Virus record (IMG/VR): IMGVR_UViG_3300027969_004705
Location: 1 to 64,000 of that record
From: a virus
Strand: one strand, 5' to 3'
DNA: 64,000 bases
Both the position numbers and the translations under genes were made by a program. Position 1 is the first letter of the stretch; each line of letters opens with the position of its first letter. Shown here piece after piece: positions 2,017 to 55,715 of this stretch. Under the pieces are notes generated by a model, which was not told the origin of the DNA, made no database searches, and saw only the letters and a list, made by a program, of their open reading frames with translations.

Positions 2017-3114
2017 ATGGATAAAGATATTAAAAGTGCACTAGATTCAATTAATGAGATTAACCCTTTTGCTACATGGCTAGATGATAATGCTTTAAGT
2101 ACTGTAAATGGCTGGATTGATACCGGTAGCTATGTACTAAATGCTATTATTTCTGGCTCAATTCATGGAGGTATTCCGAAAGGAAGAGTAACAATGTTAG
2201 CTGGAGAGTCTATGACAGGTAAAAGTCTCTTTGTACAAAAAATTCTTGCTAATGCACAGAAAGAAGGCTTGATCCCGGTTATCTTTGATACAGAAAACTC
2301 TATTGATGCTACTGGAGCTACTAGATTAGGTCTTGATATTTCAAAAATTAAATATGTACCTTGCGTTACTATTGAACAAACACGAAACGCTATTTTTAAG
2401 TTTTTAACTGCAGTTAAAGAGAAAGGTCTTGAAGGTAAATTTATTGTAGCTATTGACTCTTTAGGTAATCTTCAATCTGAACTTGAACTATCTCGTATGG
2501 ATAAAGAGAGTACTTCATCTGATATGGGATCTAAAGCTCGAGCAATTAAATCGTTAATGCAAACTTGTACTAACTTTGGCGCTATTACAAGAACTACTAT
2601 TATTTGTACAAATCATGTGTATGATGATCCAACTGCAATGTATCCTACAATTGAAAAGATGATGCCTGGTGGTAAATCAGTTATATTCTTACCATCCGTA
2701 ACAGTTCAGCTTGCTCGTAAACCTATTAAGGATGATGGAGGTAAAACAAACGATGGTGTTCTTGCTGTTGGTCAAAAGAACTACTCTGGTATTGTTATTA
2801 GAGCATTAACTCGTAAAAATCGCTTTATTAAGCAATACCTTGAAGGGGAAATGTATCTATCTTTTGCATCAGGACTTGATAAGTACTATGGTCTACTTGA
2901 TCTCGCTGTAGGTCTTAAAGTTATCATACAAACAGGAGCTACATATACTCTTGAAAATGGTACTAAGCTCGGATATGCAAAAAGTTTCAGAAAAGATACT
3001 AAACTTTGGGAAGAAACTATTTTACCTGTACTTGAATCACGTATTGCTAAGGAATGGAACTACTCTAATATAGAGGAAGAAATACCTCTTGAAAATACTT
3101 TAATTACTGAATAA
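2017..3114 (+). CDS. uvsX: UvsX-like RecA-family recombinase
   Basis: 365 residues, close to T4 UvsX (about 390). Walker A is GESMTGKS (63-70) and Walker B is FIVAIDSLGN with D147. The ATPase core continues through MGSKARAIKSLMQTC and the IICTNHVYDDP block to MMPGGKSVIFLPSVTVQLAR, all typical of the phage branch of RecA. It should form filaments on single-stranded DNA and drive strand exchange for recombination-dependent replication. The gene is preceded by its own TATAAT promoter and no ribosome binding site. The QueC-like gene follows after one base, so the two are probably cotranscribed. No UvsY partner is recognisable in the window. Confidence 0.92.
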   Translation: MDKDIKSALDSINEINPFATWLDDNALSTVNGWIDTGSYVLNAIISGSIHGGIPKGRVTMLAGESMTGKSLFVQKILANAQKEGLIPVIFDTENSIDATGATRLGLDISKIKYVPCVTIEQTRNAIFKFLTAVKEKGLEGKFIVAIDSLGNLQSELELSRMDKESTSSDMGSKARAIKSLMQTCTNFGAITRTTIICTNHVYDDPTAMYPTIEKMMPGGKSVIFLPSVTVQLARKPIKDDGGKTNDGVLAVGQKNYSGIVIRALTRKNRFIKQYLEGEMYLSFASGLDKYYGLLDLAVGLKVIIQTGATYTLENGTKLGYAKSFRKDTKLWEETILPVLESRIAKEWNYSNIEEEIPLENTLITE

Positions 3115-3115
3115 T

Positions 3116-3874
3116 ATGACAGCGAAATTAGTCTTAACTCTATCTGGCGGTGCAGATTCTTCTGTATTACTATATCTGGCAGCTCAATATAAATATGATG
3201 AAATTCATACTATTACATTTGATTACGGTCAGCGTCATTCACGTGAACTTGAATGCGTTAATAAACAACTTATTAACGTACGTAAGCAGTATCCAGATAT
3301 TATTTTTACAAATAAAATAATTGATGTAAAATATATTAAAGATATATCTCCTACATCTTCTTTAACTAACTGCACTATTGATAATCCTAATGTTCAATTA
3401 ATAGCCGGAGATGCACAACCGGTATCCTATGTTCCCTTCCGTAATATGATGTTCTTATCTATTGCGTGTGCATATGCAGAAAGCATAGAAGCTAATACTG
3501 TGTGGTACGGTGCAGCAATGGTTGATTCTTTAGCTGGCTATTGGGATTGTGATACACCTTTTGTAGACGCTATCAATAACTTAGTAAGCCTTAACAGAAA
3601 AAATAAAATTAAAATTGAAGCACCTCTACTTGCAATGTCTAAGCAAGCTATTATAAGTAAGGGTGTTGATTTAAATGTCAATTTTAGTGAGACATGGACT
3701 TGCTATTCTAACAGAGAAGATGGGCTTGCAGATGCTACAACACCATCTAGTAGTTTAAGAATACGTGGATTTATTGATAACTCTTATATAGATCCAATAC
3801 AATATGTACAACAGGATAAACTAAATGAGATGTATAAACAACATAATTGCGTACCTATTAATTACATACCATAG
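3116..3874 (+). CDS. queC: QueC-like PP-loop enzyme with altered zinc site
   Basis: 252 residues. The PP-loop LSGGADSS (9-16), FDYGQRHSREL (35-45) and YVPFRNMMFLSIACAYAE (105-122) are diagnostic of QueC, 7-cyano-7-deazaguanine (preQ0) synthase, which converts CDG to preQ0 using ATP and ammonia. In QueC the C-terminal zinc is held by four cysteines, a first Cys after TW followed by a CxxCxxC block. Here the first (C196 in TWTCY) is kept, but the three later positions read D206, T209 and S212. The flanking LRIRGF is retained, so this is not a frameshift. Either the metal site is replaced by another stabilising interaction or the reaction has shifted. It starts one base after uvsX and ends with a 13 bp tail-to-tail overlap with the next minus-strand gene. 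A separate class II amidotransferase lies 1 kb away. Confidence 0.85.
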   Translation: MTAKLVLTLSGGADSSVLLYLAAQYKYDEIHTITFDYGQRHSRELECVNKQLINVRKQYPDIIFTNKIIDVKYIKDISPTSSLTNCTIDNPNVQLIAGDAQPVSYVPFRNMMFLSIACAYAESIEANTVWYGAAMVDSLAGYWDCDTPFVDAINNLVSLNRKNKIKIEAPLLAMSKQAIISKGVDLNVNFSETWTCYSNREDGLADATTPSSSLRIRGFIDNSYIDPIQYVQQDKLNEMYKQHNCVPINYIP

Positions 3875-4854
3875 CGTCTTAATTCAGCTAGTTGCCAATG
3901 TGTTTTTGGCTTAAACTTCTCTTTAAAGGATATACTAACTTCAGTTGATTTGTGAGTTAGTCTATCCTTTTTTATTTGTTCACTAAGATAATGATATGTT
4001 GTAGATTCAAATTGAGCTTCTACAGGCGGTACTTCTTCATTTTCAGCTGCAGCAGGTTCAGCTTGTGTCTCAGCTGGAGTCTTAGCAAACTTCATTGATT
4101 TCTTAACAGGCTTAATAGCACTAGATAAATACGCAGCAATTAACTCATAACCAGGTTCTTTACTAATATTGGTAATAAATTGTTGTAAATCAGCTAAAGT
4201 TTTAATATGATCTGTAATATATTCTTCTACTCTAGATAGAACATCAGCGTCAATATCTACCCCTTCTTCTCCTAAGTTATCTCTAATTTCCATCATTACT
4301 TTACCTACAGACGCAAGTACGAGTGATTGTTCAAGAGCCGCTTCAATCTCACTCGTCATAGAGTGACCAACTACATCAGCAACAACTGGATCTTTAATAC
4401 CTCTTTCAAGTTCTTTTGCTTGACGTTTCATTTCAAGCGCAGCTTTTTGATCGCTATACTTTTCAACACGTCCACCAAATCTATCTGCACCTCTATTAAT
4501 TGAAACTGATTTTATATAGCTAGGGATACCTGCTCTAATAGCTTCTTCTACTTCTTTACTTTGCAAAGCTATTTGATCTTTTTTAACCTCAAGTAATTGT
4601 AAAAGAGCTAATTGTTTTGCTTTAAAGCTACTCCCTGCTTTTCTGATACTATCATATTCATCATCATTTATGATATCAAGACCGTATAACTCACCTGCAA
4701 TGTATTTAATAGTATCATAAGGTGCAGAACTTAATCCTCCTGACTGCAATTCCTTAGTAACTCCTCCAAAAATAGGATTAAATTTTGCAAAAGGTGAAAC
4801 TCTTGCTTCAGAGATTAAATTAACTCTTTTGTATAAATCTGAAAAATTAAACAT
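3862..4854 (-). CDS. probable virion-associated protein, function unknown
   Basis: 330 residues, mainly helical and charged. About 60-160 is a long helical stretch rich in Lys/Glu/Ala (QLLEVKKDQIALQSKEVEEA). Residues 255-285 form an Ala/Glu/Pro-rich linker and the C-terminus is basic (KEKFKPKTHWQLAELRRYG). No enzyme motif is recognised. It is on the minus strand within the replication region and has a perfect TATAAATA five bases before its ATG, which argues for late expression and a structural or assembly role. The 3' end overlaps queC by 13 bp. Confidence 0.7.
   Translation of the reverse strand: MFNFSDLYKRVNLISEARVSPFAKFNPIFGGVTKELQSGGLSSAPYDTIKYIAGELYGLDIINDDEYDSIRKAGSSFKAKQLALLQLLEVKKDQIALQSKEVEEAIRAGIPSYIKSVSINRGADRFGGRVEKYSDQKAALEMKRQAKELERGIKDPVVADVVGHSMTSEIEAALEQSLVLASVGKVMMEIRDNLGEEGVDIDADVLSRVEEYITDHIKTLADLQQFITNISKEPGYELIAAYLSSAIKPVKKSMKFAKTPAETQAEPAAAENEEVPPVEAQFESTTYHYLSEQIKKDRLTHKSTEVSISFKEKFKPKTHWQLAELRRYGM
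3925..3973 (+). terminator. plus-strand terminator of the uvsX-queC unit inside the opposite gene
   Basis: Left arm AAAGGATATACTAACT (3925-3940) pairs, with one mismatch, with GAGTTAGTCTATCCTTT (3954-3970); a T-run follows to 3973. It lies about 50 bases past the queC stop, inside the 3' end of the convergent gene. Confidence 0.75.
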
Positions 4855-4859
4855 ATAAT

Positions 4860-4867
4860 TATTTATA
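4860..4867 (-). promoter_or_regulatory. late-type promoter TATAAATA
   Basis: Perfect T4-late octamer on the minus strand, ending five bases before the ATG at 4854; predicted +1 is the A of that ATG. Confidence 0.7.
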
Positions 4868-4912
4868 TAAACTACTTTTTTTTATAAGGTATAAGTAGTA
4901 TTTTTTAAAGGT

Positions 4913-4923
4913 TATAATATAAT
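4913..4923 (+). promoter_or_regulatory. tandem TATAAT elements before the amidotransferase
   Basis: Two overlapping TATAAT hexamers (4913-4918 and 4918-4923). The second ends seven bases before the ATG at 4931, giving a leaderless or one-base-leader transcript. No clear -35 is seen. Confidence 0.55.
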
Positions 4924-4930
4924 AGTATAT

Positions 4931-5596
4931 ATGTGTGGAATATCTGGAACAAACAATTTAAGTAAATTAGAAGTCTTATATCAAGCTAATCAGGATAGAG
5001 GTAGCTTTGCAAGCGGGTTAATTTGCCTTAAAGAAGGTAATAGTCAAACAATAATTAAACAGCCTGGTACGTTTAATTTTGATAAGTTACAATTAACTGA
5101 TAAGTATGATTATTTTATTAGTCATAATCAAGCACCTACCTCTGCAAATCGAGAATTTAAAATGGAAAATACTCATCCTTTCGAAACACTGTCATGGGCT
5201 GTTGTGCATAATGGTGTAATTACTAATTGGAAAGAACTTAAAGAAAAATATACTCCGCGTAGTACTAATACAGTAGATACGTCAATTATTACAGGGTTAC
5301 TTCAACATTTTACTGAGCAAAATACAGGTTATTTTTATGCGCCTTTAATTATACGTAAAGTATTAGAGTTACTTGAAGGTACTTTTGCTGTTGCTATAGT
5401 AGACACAGATTCAAACGATGTATATATTGCAAGACAGGGATCAATCTTACACCATAATGATAAATGCGATTTCTCTACAATAAAAGGTAAAGGTTTTGAG
5501 CTATTACCTGAAGGTCAAATTATGATGCTTCGAGATTTTGAAGGTTGGGAACCAATTGAAGAATTTAAAACCAACTCACCATTTCTTTTCGTATGA
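4931..5596 (+). CDS. stand-alone class II glutamine amidotransferase domain
   Basis: 221 residues, about the size of a single N-terminal-nucleophile glutaminase domain. The sequence begins MCGISG, placing the catalytic cysteine at position 2, which also fixes the start. THPFETLSWAVVHNG (81-95), with the HNG oxyanion loop, VDTSII (115-120) and LLEGTFAVAIVD match GlmS/AsnB/GltB-type glutaminases. The usual GHxR block reads SHNQAPT, so the arginine is missing. No synthetase or isomerase domain follows, so the ammonia must go to a separate partner. Candidates are the QueC-like protein 1 kb upstream, by analogy with fused Gat-QueC proteins of archaeosine synthesis, or a sugar-modifying enzyme. Its stop overlaps the start of the glycosyltransferase (ATGA), so the two are translationally coupled. 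Confidence 0.85.
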   Translation: MCGISGTNNLSKLEVLYQANQDRGSFASGLICLKEGNSQTIIKQPGTFNFDKLQLTDKYDYFISHNQAPTSANREFKMENTHPFETLSWAVVHNGVITNWKELKEKYTPRSTNTVDTSIITGLLQHFTEQNTGYFYAPLIIRKVLELLEGTFAVAIVDTDSNDVYIARQGSILHHNDKCDFSTIKGKGFELLPEGQIMMLRDFEGWEPIEEFKTNSPFLFV

Positions 5597-6306
5597 GCAG
5601 TTTCCTATTCTCCGCAACTAAGGGTAAAAAAGAAGATACACTTTTATACCAAAACCGCAAAGCAACATTCTTTTTTAAAGAAGATAATACTGATGCACTA
5701 GCTGTAGTATATAATAAAGCTATAGATTTTGCCATTCAAGAAAATGTAGACTATCTAGTATTATGTCACGATGATGCTATTATTGAATCTGCTGATTTTG
5801 AAGAACGTTTAATAAACTTACATACGCAATATGATGTCTTAGGAGTAGCTGGTACAACAGAATGTAAATTACAAGCGCCTGCGCTCTGGCACTTATTAGG
5901 CGGAGGTAGAGAAACATTTAACAACTTAAGAGGTGCTGTAGCACATGGTGATGCTAATTTAAAACGAATGACAAGCTTTGGAGAATACCCTGCTCGTGTA
6001 TTATTACTTGATGGAGTATTTTTATCTATTAAAAAGGAAGTATTTACTAAAGTAAGATTTGATGAATCTTGCCCAGCAAAGTTTCATTTTTATGATCTAA
6101 ACTACAGTCTTGAATGCAATAAAGCAAAATTTAAACTTGGTGTAAGTGATATTTTAATTACACATAATTCACCTGGACTTACAGCATTTACTAATGAGTT
6201 TAACGAAGGTCAAGAATGGTTTCTTAACAAATGGAAACCTAATACTGAAAAAATAAAGACTAAAAAAATAAAAACCAGAAAAAAGACTAAACGAACACTA
6301 GTATAA
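5593..6306 (+). CDS. GT2-like glycosyltransferase
   Basis: 237 residues with a GT-A core: VDYLVLCHDDAIIES (52-66) carries the metal/nucleotide-sugar DD motif, followed by VLGVAGTTECKL, a VLLLDGVFLSIKKEVF acceptor-side block and FHFYDLNYSLECNKAKFKLGV. This arrangement is seen in the StrF-like and GT2 families. The last 30 residues are almost only Lys, Thr and Arg (KTKKIKTRKKTKRTLV), a basic tail that could bind nucleic acid. Coupling to the amidotransferase by a 4-base overlap suggests they act in one pathway. Donor sugar and acceptor (DNA, protein or host glycan) are unknown. Confidence 0.8.
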   Translation: MSSFLFSATKGKKEDTLLYQNRKATFFFKEDNTDALAVVYNKAIDFAIQENVDYLVLCHDDAIIESADFEERLINLHTQYDVLGVAGTTECKLQAPALWHLLGGGRETFNNLRGAVAHGDANLKRMTSFGEYPARVLLLDGVFLSIKKEVFTKVRFDESCPAKFHFYDLNYSLECNKAKFKLGVSDILITHNSPGLTAFTNEFNEGQEWFLNKWKPNTEKIKTKKIKTRKKTKRTLV

Positions 6307-6312: not shown

Positions 6313-7632
6313 ATGGTCAAACTGGATTTAGATTTTTTTGAAAATGTAATTATTTATAAATCTTTAACAGATGCAGGATACTTAGCCTCTATTCTTGACT
6401 TTGTTAATCCGGAGTACTTTAAATCAGCAAATATTGCTGATGTTTTTAATATCATTAAAGAGTTTTATGTAAAAAGACAAAAAGTACCTAATATTACAGA
6501 AATTAAATCATATTTAATAACTGACGAATTAAAGACCGCTTTCAAAAATATTGTTTATTCATTTAGTGAAATAGATAAAAACTTAAATAAAGACGAATTA
6601 TATCATAATACAGAAAGATTCTTAAAAGAGAAAGCTGTATATCATACTATGCTTAATATTGCTACTGATATTGCTAAGGGTAATGTCGATACTACAAAAG
6701 CATTAGATAAATTTGAAAAGGCATGTAATATCAGTTTAATAACTGATAAAGGTATCGATCTATATAACAATATTGAAGCTATTATTGAAGACTTAAGTAC
6801 TGTTAATGGAACTATACCTTCTACGTGGGAATGGCTTGATGAAACTCTCGGTGGTGGGTTTCTTGAGCAAGGTAAAGCGCTTTATGTATTTGCCGGTGAA
6901 ACGAATATTGGTAAGTCTATCTTTTTAGGTAATATAGCTACTAATATCGCAAATCAGAATAAGAACGTTTTGTTAATTACTCTAGAGATGTCTGAACTTC
7001 TCTATGCTAAACGTTTATGCTCGAATATCTCGAAGATACCTCTTAAAGATCTTGCAAATAATCCGCATGCTTTACGTACTGCTATTAAAGAAAATAGAGA
7101 GAAGACTAATGGTACTATATTAATTAAGGAATTTCCACCTGCTACCATTACCGCTAATCAAATTAGTGCATTCGTAAAGAAGATTACTGATACAGGATGT
7201 AAAATAGATGCTATTGTATTAGATTACTTGAATCTATTGCATACTACTGTAGGGAGTAATTCATATGAGAGAATTAAGCATATTACAGAGCAAATTCGAG
7301 CATTAAGCTATGTCTTTAATTGTCCTATTATCTCAGCTACCCAGCTAGGTCGAAATGCGTATGGTCAAACTGATCCGGGTATGGAAACTATCTCTGAATC
7401 GATCGGTTTAGCCGCAACTGCTGACGTTATTGTATCGATCTTCCAAAATCCTGAAGATCAAGAGTTAGGTGTTATTCGTTTAGGTATGATGAAGAATCGA
7501 TATGGTTCAAGAGGTCATACTCAACCCATGCGAATTGATTATACTACACTTACAGTAACGCAAGCGGACGACCTCGTGAGTCTTGATGATGAAGATGATT
7601 CATATAATGCTTTATCTGCATTCGCTCGTTGA
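6313..7632 (+). CDS. 41: replicative DNA helicase (T4 gp41 / DnaB-like)
   Basis: 439 residues. The N-terminal helical domain is followed by a RecA-type core with Walker A GETNIGKS (195-202), Walker B AIVLDYLNLL (D304), the ITLEMSE block (222-228) and ISATQLGR (H4 region), all as in superfamily 4 hexameric helicases. Length is close to T4 gp41 (475). It should unwind DNA ahead of the polymerase and recruit the primase encoded at 13.0 kb. The gene has its own AAYGAAC-type promoter and no ribosome binding site. Confidence 0.92.
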   Translation: MVKLDLDFFENVIIYKSLTDAGYLASILDFVNPEYFKSANIADVFNIIKEFYVKRQKVPNITEIKSYLITDELKTAFKNIVYSFSEIDKNLNKDELYHNTERFLKEKAVYHTMLNIATDIAKGNVDTTKALDKFEKACNISLITDKGIDLYNNIEAIIEDLSTVNGTIPSTWEWLDETLGGGFLEQGKALYVFAGETNIGKSIFLGNIATNIANQNKNVLLITLEMSELLYAKRLCSNISKIPLKDLANNPHALRTAIKENREKTNGTILIKEFPPATITANQISAFVKKITDTGCKIDAIVLDYLNLLHTTVGSNSYERIKHITEQIRALSYVFNCPIISATQLGRNAYGQTDPGMETISESIGLAATADVIVSIFQNPEDQELGVIRLGMMKNRYGSRGHTQPMRIDYTTLTVTQADDLVSLDDEDDSYNALSAFAR

Positions 7633-54005: not shown

Positions 54006-55715
54006 TTAAGTGACAGTCTTAGTATATAAAAAAACTAAATTACCACAATCATATATCTTACGATATCCTTCCTCATACATAATTTCTGTTTCTGTTTTAA
54101 TATTGTCGAATGCTTGAAAGTGTTTTAATTTATGTTTTTGAAAATTGAGTCTACTAAGTAGATTTATAGTATCTTTCGTATAAAAAAAGTTAGGTTTAGA
54201 TGTTCTTATTAATTTAAAGCCATTTTTTAAATATGATTTACCATCTGAATATCTTAAATCGCAGTAAGATATAATATCTTCATTTATCTGACCAGCACAA
54301 TGTTTAAATAACTTACTAAATCCTCCTACTACACTAGTATTTAGTTTACAACAATATCTGACTAGTTCCACTTGATTATTTGCATTTATTTTCCTATGTG
54401 AAAAAGACATAGCTGCGTAAATTTCATTATCTATTTTTAGTCCATAATCTAAAAAACTTTGACAGTTACCTTGTATGTGGTTCTGTATATAAAATTGTTT
54501 TTTTTCATCTTTTGTAAGTCTTACGAGGGTACATTTTCTTGCGTATTTTCTGGTTTCTAATTTATTTAATTTAGCTAAAATAATTGATTTCACGATGTCT
54601 TTTTTTAAAATCCATTCATTCTCAAATACGGTAATTAAATTGATGTTATTAGTTTGACATATTTGATTTTTAATTGAGTGTTTTTGACGGCCGGATGCTT
54701 CATGATGACTATTACAAGGATAAGTAGTACCATATGAATGCCAAAGAACACCATTATATTCAATACCTACTGCTTTATCAGGTATAAATAAATCGATTTC
54801 AATACCATTAACTTTTGCATTTTTTATAGTATTAATATTGTATTGTTGTAAAAATTCATTAATTTCATCTTCAGCCCGACTTCTGTTTTTGCCATACCCG
54901 GTGCAATTGTTACAACAAATTTCCTGCCATAACCCGCAAATAAATAATTGTTGTTTTACACTGTTACATTTTTTGCATTTAATATCTATCACACGTTGCT
55001 TATTAATATTGCTAATATCTGTTAAAATGATAAAGTTTTTTGTTACTTCTTTTTTTATCTGCTCTATCTCATAACTATGTTTATTTTCTTTAGAACTAAA
55101 CTTACTATATCCTAATGTACTATTAATATAATTACAAAATCCTTTATCATATGATATTTGTCGCTGATCTATATTATTTTTTAAACAATAAAATCTTTCA
55201 CCCCACTGTGCATCTATTGGTAGAAAGTCTGTCCAATATCTAACACTACATAATAGATCTATATTTTTTTCTATATCCCAAGCTTTAATATTAGTTTTAA
55301 ATTTAACAATTTGCTGTGTAACAGCATCTTTAGATATAATATTAAAAGTGTGTGTTTCATAGCACTTATTAAAGTGGTTTTTAATATCAGAATATCGTTG
55401 CTTTATTGAAGATGTGTTAACTATTCTATTTTTATACATCATTGTTTTACTTTGACTGTACTTTTGAGCGTTTGGTGACCACTTTAAGTATTCACTAGTC
55501 ATTTCACATACACATCGATTAGTTATATTATTTCGTATACAGTAAATTCGTTCTGACGCACTTGCAGTACTTGGTAAGAACTCTGTAGCTTTACATATAT
55601 CAGTTTTTAAACTAATATTATCTTTAGCATTATACTTAGTTGTTGAGATTGTACCTACAGATGAATATATTTTGTGTATGTTATCTAAGATATGAGTCCT
55701 CAATAGTGTGTTCAT
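54006..55715 (-). CDS. free-standing homing endonuclease-like protein (Vsr/EDxHD fold)
   Basis: 569 residues. N-terminal half: two copies of a module (43-86 and 161-205) with the pattern T.FLP..A...ER.YC..NNI..R, probably DNA-binding. Residues 247-271 are a zinc-finger-like CKKC...CCNNC block. The catalytic part follows: AEDEINEFLQ (E282/E284), GIEIDLFIP (D308), GIEYNGVLWHS (H326), then ICQTNNINLITVFENEW. This is the Vsr-like/EDxHD arrangement of phage homing nucleases. Residues 390-569 may form another recognition domain. The gene interrupts the sheath-tube pair and has its own late-type promoter, typical of mobile endonuclease genes. Confidence 0.8.
   Translation of the reverse strand: MNTLLRTHILDNIHKIYSSVGTISTTKYNAKDNISLKTDICKATEFLPSTASASERIYCIRNNITNRCVCEMTSEYLKWSPNAQKYSQSKTMMYKNRIVNTSSIKQRYSDIKNHFNKCYETHTFNIISKDAVTQQIVKFKTNIKAWDIEKNIDLLCSVRYWTDFLPIDAQWGERFYCLKNNIDQRQISYDKGFCNYINSTLGYSKFSSKENKHSYEIEQIKKEVTKNFIILTDISNINKQRVIDIKCKKCNSVKQQLFICGLWQEICCNNCTGYGKNRSRAEDEINEFLQQYNINTIKNAKVNGIEIDLFIPDKAVGIEYNGVLWHSYGTTYPCNSHHEASGRQKHSIKNQICQTNNINLITVFENEWILKKDIVKSIILAKLNKLETRKYARKCTLVRLTKDEKKQFYIQNHIQGNCQSFLDYGLKIDNEIYAAMSFSHRKINANNQVELVRYCCKLNTSVVGGFSKLFKHCAGQINEDIISYCDLRYSDGKSYLKNGFKLIRTSKPNFFYTKDTINLLSRLNFQKHKLKHFQAFDNIKTETEIMYEEGYRKIYDCGNLVFLYTKTVT

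Follow-up and report, generated by a model that had tools for sequence, protein, structure and literature searches.

A QueC, glutamine amidotransferase and glycosyltransferase block in uncultured T4-like phages with a probable 7-deazaguanine DNA modification pathway

The 7-deazaguanine pathway as such is already known from phages, among them phage 9g, in which a Gat-QueC protein together with DpdA yields dG+ (PMC6884629), and repurposing of the QueC family has also been documented (PMC13329287, PMC13279940). Here we describe a stretch of viral DNA of 64,000 nucleotides (positions 1 to 64,000 of IMG/VR record IMGVR_UViG_3300027969_004705; hereafter the window), part of a fragmentary linear record of 72,671 bases (G000) whose UvsX, gp44-like clamp loader, tail sheath and terminase indicate a T4-like myovirus. 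Within its replication module lie genes for a QueC-like 7-cyano-7-deazaguanine synthase, a free-standing class II glutamine amidotransferase (GAT) and a GT-A type glycosyltransferase (GT). With a probability of roughly two in three, we read this locus as part of a phage DNA base modification route through preQ0 and preQ1, in which QueC would act as the preQ0 synthase and virion DNA would carry a preQ1-type 7-deazaguanine.

The three open reading frames (ORFs) lie exactly where an original prediction, made from the sequence alone, had placed them, and Pfam and NCBIfam searches confirm their identities. It had also described Gat and QueC as separate genes about 1 kb apart and Gat as overlapping GT; the distance from QueC stop to GAT start is indeed about 1.06 kb, occupied by the opposite-strand gene orf330, and the overlap is 4 nt (ATGA). 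Relatives of QueC are encoded in 168 viral stretches and relatives of GAT in at least 539; in loci with GAT and without QueC, the left contig end appears to fall inside the GAT/orf330 region. Profile searches of fetched loci, all from one virus clade and including some near-copies, found the order UvsX-QueC-(x)-GAT-GT-DnaB intact in every one of the 104 related loci that span it, and in 123 of 144 the stop of GAT overlaps a start codon. In part of a sister branch whose QueC retains its zinc motif, QueC and GAT lie side by side with a gap near zero; in the window's branch the opposite-strand gene or others intervene, and a fusion was nowhere observed. For QueC, GAT and GT the ratio of nonsynonymous to synonymous substitution rates (dN/dS) is 0.02-0.16 in the pairs tested, which indicates purifying selection and, together with the unbroken block, places the three-gene observation far beyond chance.

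As the original prediction stated, FolE, QueD, QueE and DpdA are absent from the window; neither they nor QueF occur in the whole 72.7-kb record, most likely because this fragment, whose left end truncates a DNA polymerase gene, starts only 3.1 kb before QueC. Relatives, however, do encode these genes. FolE was found in 15 of 24 related records, QueD in 16 of 24 and QueE in 14 of 17; a QueE scan of contigs from the samples of the window's closest relatives gave none among the best 80. FolE, QueD and QueE cluster about 20 kb upstream of QueC in G005 and in the 197-kb relative G003. Further off, DpdA adjoins QueF wherever the relatives' records reach that region, with a formyltransferase-like (DpdN-like) gene beside them in several. 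The complete set stands on one contig of a 105-kb relative, which encodes nine genes (FolE, QueD, QueE, QueC, GAT, GT, DpdA, the DpdN-like formyltransferase and QueF) and is 79% identical to the window in UvsX, 65% in QueC and 61% in GAT. The clade thus has FolE, QueD, QueE and QueC together with a DpdA transglycosylase; for the window's phage, whose own record holds QueC only, we infer membership of the DpdA pathway, with the rest of the set presumably carried beyond the fragment.

The Pfam model of tRNA-guanine transglycosylase (TGT), PF01702, had no match in 24 records and matched 14 of 14 control genomes. A pathway without a transglycosylase, the reading this null would suggest, was rejected: PF01702 also misses the known DpdA of phage JenP2, so that the null is a miss of the method, and a DpdA protein query finds homologues in the clade's records. 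That query was the 264-residue gene product annotated as DpdA in Flavobacterium phage vB_FspM_immuto (NC_055915; hereafter immuto), a phage whose FolE is 61% identical to FolE of G003. An AlphaFold2 (AF2) model of the clade's divergent DpdA (predicted local distance difference test score 92) has TGTs as 50 of its 50 best PDB matches, and the protein is accordingly modelled as a TGT fold. A second, partial DpdA copy was seen in G003 at 1-359 on the minus strand (74% identical over 118 residues), the full copy lying at 188257-189063. The QueF of immuto is bimodular (QueF_N plus QueF, the NADPH type) and 47-52% identical to that of the clade. The 7-deazaguanine modification originally proposed therefore gains from relatives that encode FolE, QueD, QueE, QueC, QueF and a TGT-fold DpdA, but the bimodular QueF points to a preQ1-type base in preference to archaeosine.

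The QueC-like product matches PF06508 (E=2e-51) and lies barely above the cut-off of the NCBIfam QueC equivalog TIGR00364 (150.4 against 150.3 bits); the top PDB matches of its AF2 model are the solved QueC structures 2pg3 and 3bl5, followed by Cap9. Compared with solved QueC sequences it keeps SGGADS, YGQRHxxE, VPFRN, the Y and D of YPDC, and TCY, and the SGGxDS ATP loop, YxQxHxxE and VPxRN are invariant in 27 of 27 aligned family members. At the YPDC position Y and D are likewise invariant and P is replaced by W; the C (YWDC) occurs only in the window and in locus L005, with G or A elsewhere. Mutation of Y35, R99, Y131 or Y189 abolishes the activity of E. coli QueC (PMC13329287), and the window's protein retains the matching residues, as it does the Y and D pair that in Cap9 stacks on and reads the deazaguanine (PMC13279940). 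What it lacks is the zinc motif C(x)8CxxCxxC, in which CxxCxxC has become ADATTPSSS and the first Cys (TCY) alone remains. By sequence, this motif is the one point at which it clearly departs from canonical QueC.

The zinc site is missing, with catalytic motifs retained, from the window's branch and, separately, from immuto. A quick tree that included the trait columns and has very long outgroup branches gives two state changes in total, one within the clade and one for immuto. Zinc-less members, G003, G024 and G025 among them, hold the complete pathway, so that zinc loss is compatible with an intact route, and the QueF and DpdA of relatives imply that the window's QueC would make preQ0 from 7-carboxy-7-deazaguanine (CDG).

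GAT scores above the cut-off for GATase_6/GATase_7 and is similar to the GlmS N-terminus. Its family conserves Cys2, HNG, VD(T/S) and HxQAPT, the Cys2 nucleophile and the Asn-Gly of the oxyanion hole (N94-G95) being invariant, as in class II enzymes. GlmS has HTRWAT at its glutamine-binding Arg73; here that position is Gln throughout (HxQAPT), with an Arg close by that is conserved at about 90%. The phage collection yielded just 10 weak matches to GAT. GT matches PF13712 (Glyco_tranf_2_5) with 46.6 bits against a cut-off of 27, and conserved in its family are HDD (invariant, acidic and DxD-like), DG, FHxYD and HxSPGL; the whole-family alignment is too divergent for scanning. Homologues of GT were absent from 50,697 phage records and limited to a single weak, partial match (30%) in GTDB genomes, so the protein has no outside context. 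Its poly-basic C-terminal tail, which the original prediction had singled out, is peculiar to this phage: a product of a local indel, it is missing from the closest sister, L004 (GT 98% identical), and from all other relatives. No hydroxymethylase of the thymidylate synthase family was found in 17 records, and a T4-type hydroxymethyl target for GT therefore looks unlikely. By eye, three ORFs after QueE in G003 (144390-147552; L098) resemble further glycosyltransferases or sugar enzymes.

In the pathway that we favour, FolE, QueD and QueE would convert GTP to CDG, QueC would turn CDG into preQ0 and QueF would reduce this to preQ1, which the divergent DpdA would exchange for guanine in DNA. In several relatives the formyltransferase would act after DpdA, perhaps leaving the base formylated. 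GAT probably hydrolyses glutamine and delivers the ammonia to QueC. Glycosylation of the base, as originally suggested, is possible, and GT, whose translation is coupled to that of GAT, most plausibly adds a sugar to the modified base, although an unrelated acceptor could also be envisaged. The likely purpose would be to shield the DNA from host nucleases and defences. In its most elaborate form, with QueC and GAT as a zinc-independent, glutamine-dependent two-subunit enzyme feeding DpdA and a dedicated GT glycosylating the product to an undescribed sugar-bearing 7-deazaguanine in DNA, we consider the proposal unlikely.

Several observations weigh against the preQ0/preQ1 route or the place of GAT and GT in it. 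The pathway genes missing from the window's record have to be supplied from relatives; the QueC zinc site is lost in the window's branch, and we know of no assay of any zinc-less QueC. In immuto the pathway and a zinc-less QueC are present, yet neither GAT nor GT was found in the approximately 92% of its genome scanned, so that neither seems generally required. Synteny within one clade is expected from plain descent: the block attests to importance and common ancestry, and is not by itself proof that GAT and GT work with QueC.

GAT and GT might instead form an independent pair, devoted to glycosylation of surface or virion proteins or to amino-sugar chemistry and merely placed beside a QueC that serves DNA modification alone. 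This we hold to be a tentative alternative, deserving attention although not the expected one. The two genes are coupled more tightly to each other than either is to QueC, from which other genes separate them in the window's branch; the likeness of GAT to GlmS, the lack of both in immuto as far as scanned, and the additional GT-like ORFs beside QueE in G003 also fit. However, QueC, GAT and GT directly adjoin in part of the zinc-bearing branch, the block sits in a replication module and not in an operon for structural proteins or sugars, GAT is not followed by an isomerase domain, and QueC with Gat is a known functional pair (Gat-QueC). The amino-sugar pathway that the original prediction had offered as its second option finds no support, there being no sugar-nucleotide genes in the block. 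Were GAT and QueC instead a split Gat-QueC, they would make the formamidine G+ (the archaeosine base) for insertion by DpdA, as in phage 9g. The same two domains are present, and hhalign matches the GAT family distantly with the Gat part of JenP2 Gat-QueC (95%, E 2e-8), yet GAT is at least equally close to GlmS, the match to Gat appears to be general class II homology, and the bimodular, nitrile-reductase type QueF of relatives would divert preQ0 to preQ1; we find this reading improbable.

It is very improbable that QueC, instead of synthesizing a base, deazaguanylates protein in the manner of Cap9 or QatC. Although Cap9 is the next structural match after QueC itself and the zinc site is altered, Cap9 and QatC themselves retain zinc, the window's protein keeps the canonical QueC catalytic motifs, unlike QatC, and relatives encode the full preQ1/DpdA pathway. 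Its neighbours are replication genes, and no CD-NTase or QatB-like partner was seen among them, no search being aimed at QatB-like partners. Equally hard to credit is a pathway that serves queuosine in tRNA during infection: preQ1 is a queuosine precursor that the host could use, but a short phage-type TGT-fold enzyme adjoins QueF in the clade, ordinary TGT is lacking by the PF01702 search described above, and the window contains no tRNA genes.

The features of the block are collected in Table 1. PADLOC on the window reported the QueC match alone, and Rfam models, preQ1 riboswitches included, had no match in the window or in the pathway loci searched. The gene orf330, conserved in the window's branch, probably does not belong to the pathway; by eye its N-terminus (FSDLYKR..LISEA) resembles a T4-type capsid-targeting leader. 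The UvsX and DnaB genes of L004 (6022-7902 and 11062-12995), and also those of L003, carry intein-like inserts with no counterpart in the window's genes. A KaiC/RadA-like ATPase gene beyond the window (G000 68178-70574; L002 5179-7572) is split by an intein-like stretch with an Intein_splicing match below cut-off, which holds a separate 339-residue ORF in another frame. Adjoining the tail sheath gene is a 569-residue homing/HNH-endonuclease-like ORF (window 54006-55715, minus strand; phrog_3339, phrog_559). An RmlD-like (dTDP-rhamnose) reductase gene straddles the window edge (G000 63658-64518), and a phage-type RNA ligase is encoded at G000 71047-72351.

Table 1. Genes of the conserved block and its anchors, in window coordinates
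Feature	Length (residues)	Coordinates	Strand	Basis or remark
UvsX-like recombinase		2017..3114	+	left anchor of conserved block
QueC-like 7-cyano-7-deazaguanine synthase	252	3116..3874	+	Pfam, PHROGs, NCBIfam; AF2 model
orf330, no family match		3862..4854	-	fills QueC-GAT interval in window's branch; not at this site in other branches
Free-standing class II glutamine amidotransferase (GAT)	221	4931..5596	+	Pfam/NCBIfam, family alignment
GT-A type glycosyltransferase (GT), PF13712	237	5593..6306	+	Pfam; start codon overlaps GAT stop
DnaB-like replicative helicase		6313..7632	+	right anchor of conserved block

What is new is how far this uncultured clade extends, the invariance of its QueC-GAT-GT block in the replication module, the occurrence of a zinc-less QueC in a branch with the complete pathway, and the failure of the Pfam TGT model to detect DpdA. 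A widespread group of uncultured T4-like phages (more than 100 contigs) very probably has 7-deazaguanine DNA, with the whole gene set now located, and pathways of this kind are under-counted when searched with a TGT model that misses phage DpdA. Since one branch and immuto have lost the zinc site, which the sister branch keeps, these phages offer a natural test of its role in QueC, and also of the use of a dedicated glutaminase by QueC. If GT does act on the base, a sugar-modified 7-deazaguanine would join the known chemistry of DNA.

Compared with known systems, the window's QueC has the fold and catalytic motifs of canonical bacterial QueC (PF06508 cluster 1), but differs in the lost zinc motif, the change of YPDC to YWD(C/G/A), a C-terminal extension and the separate glutaminase adjoining it. 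Cap9 and QatC have the same fold, and Cap9 in addition has the deazaguanine-pocket Y and D; they keep company with defence partners, whereas here the associated genes are those of the pathway. The Gat-QueC system of phages 9g and JenP2 (dG+) resembles the clade in combining a class II GAT with QueC, FolE, QueD, QueE and DpdA, but its Gat-QueC is fused and retains the zinc motif (CGTCGPC), its DpdA belongs to phrog_887 rather than phrog_19058, and no QueF lies within the stretch seen. The QueC of immuto is distant (at most 43 bits) and not beside UvsX or DnaB, and no GAT or GT homologue was found in the scanned part of its genome. Work by Cui et al. 2023 is said to have named DpdA subfamilies and described formyl-preQ1, and we take the immuto-type set of DpdA, QueF and formyltransferase to be the one for formylated preQ1 in DNA. 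The divergent DpdA of immuto belongs to the clade's own family (47-53% identical), its FolE is 60.7% identical to the G003 enzyme, and like the clade it has QueF, a formyltransferase-like gene, QueD and QueE; as in the window's branch, its QueC is without the zinc cysteines.

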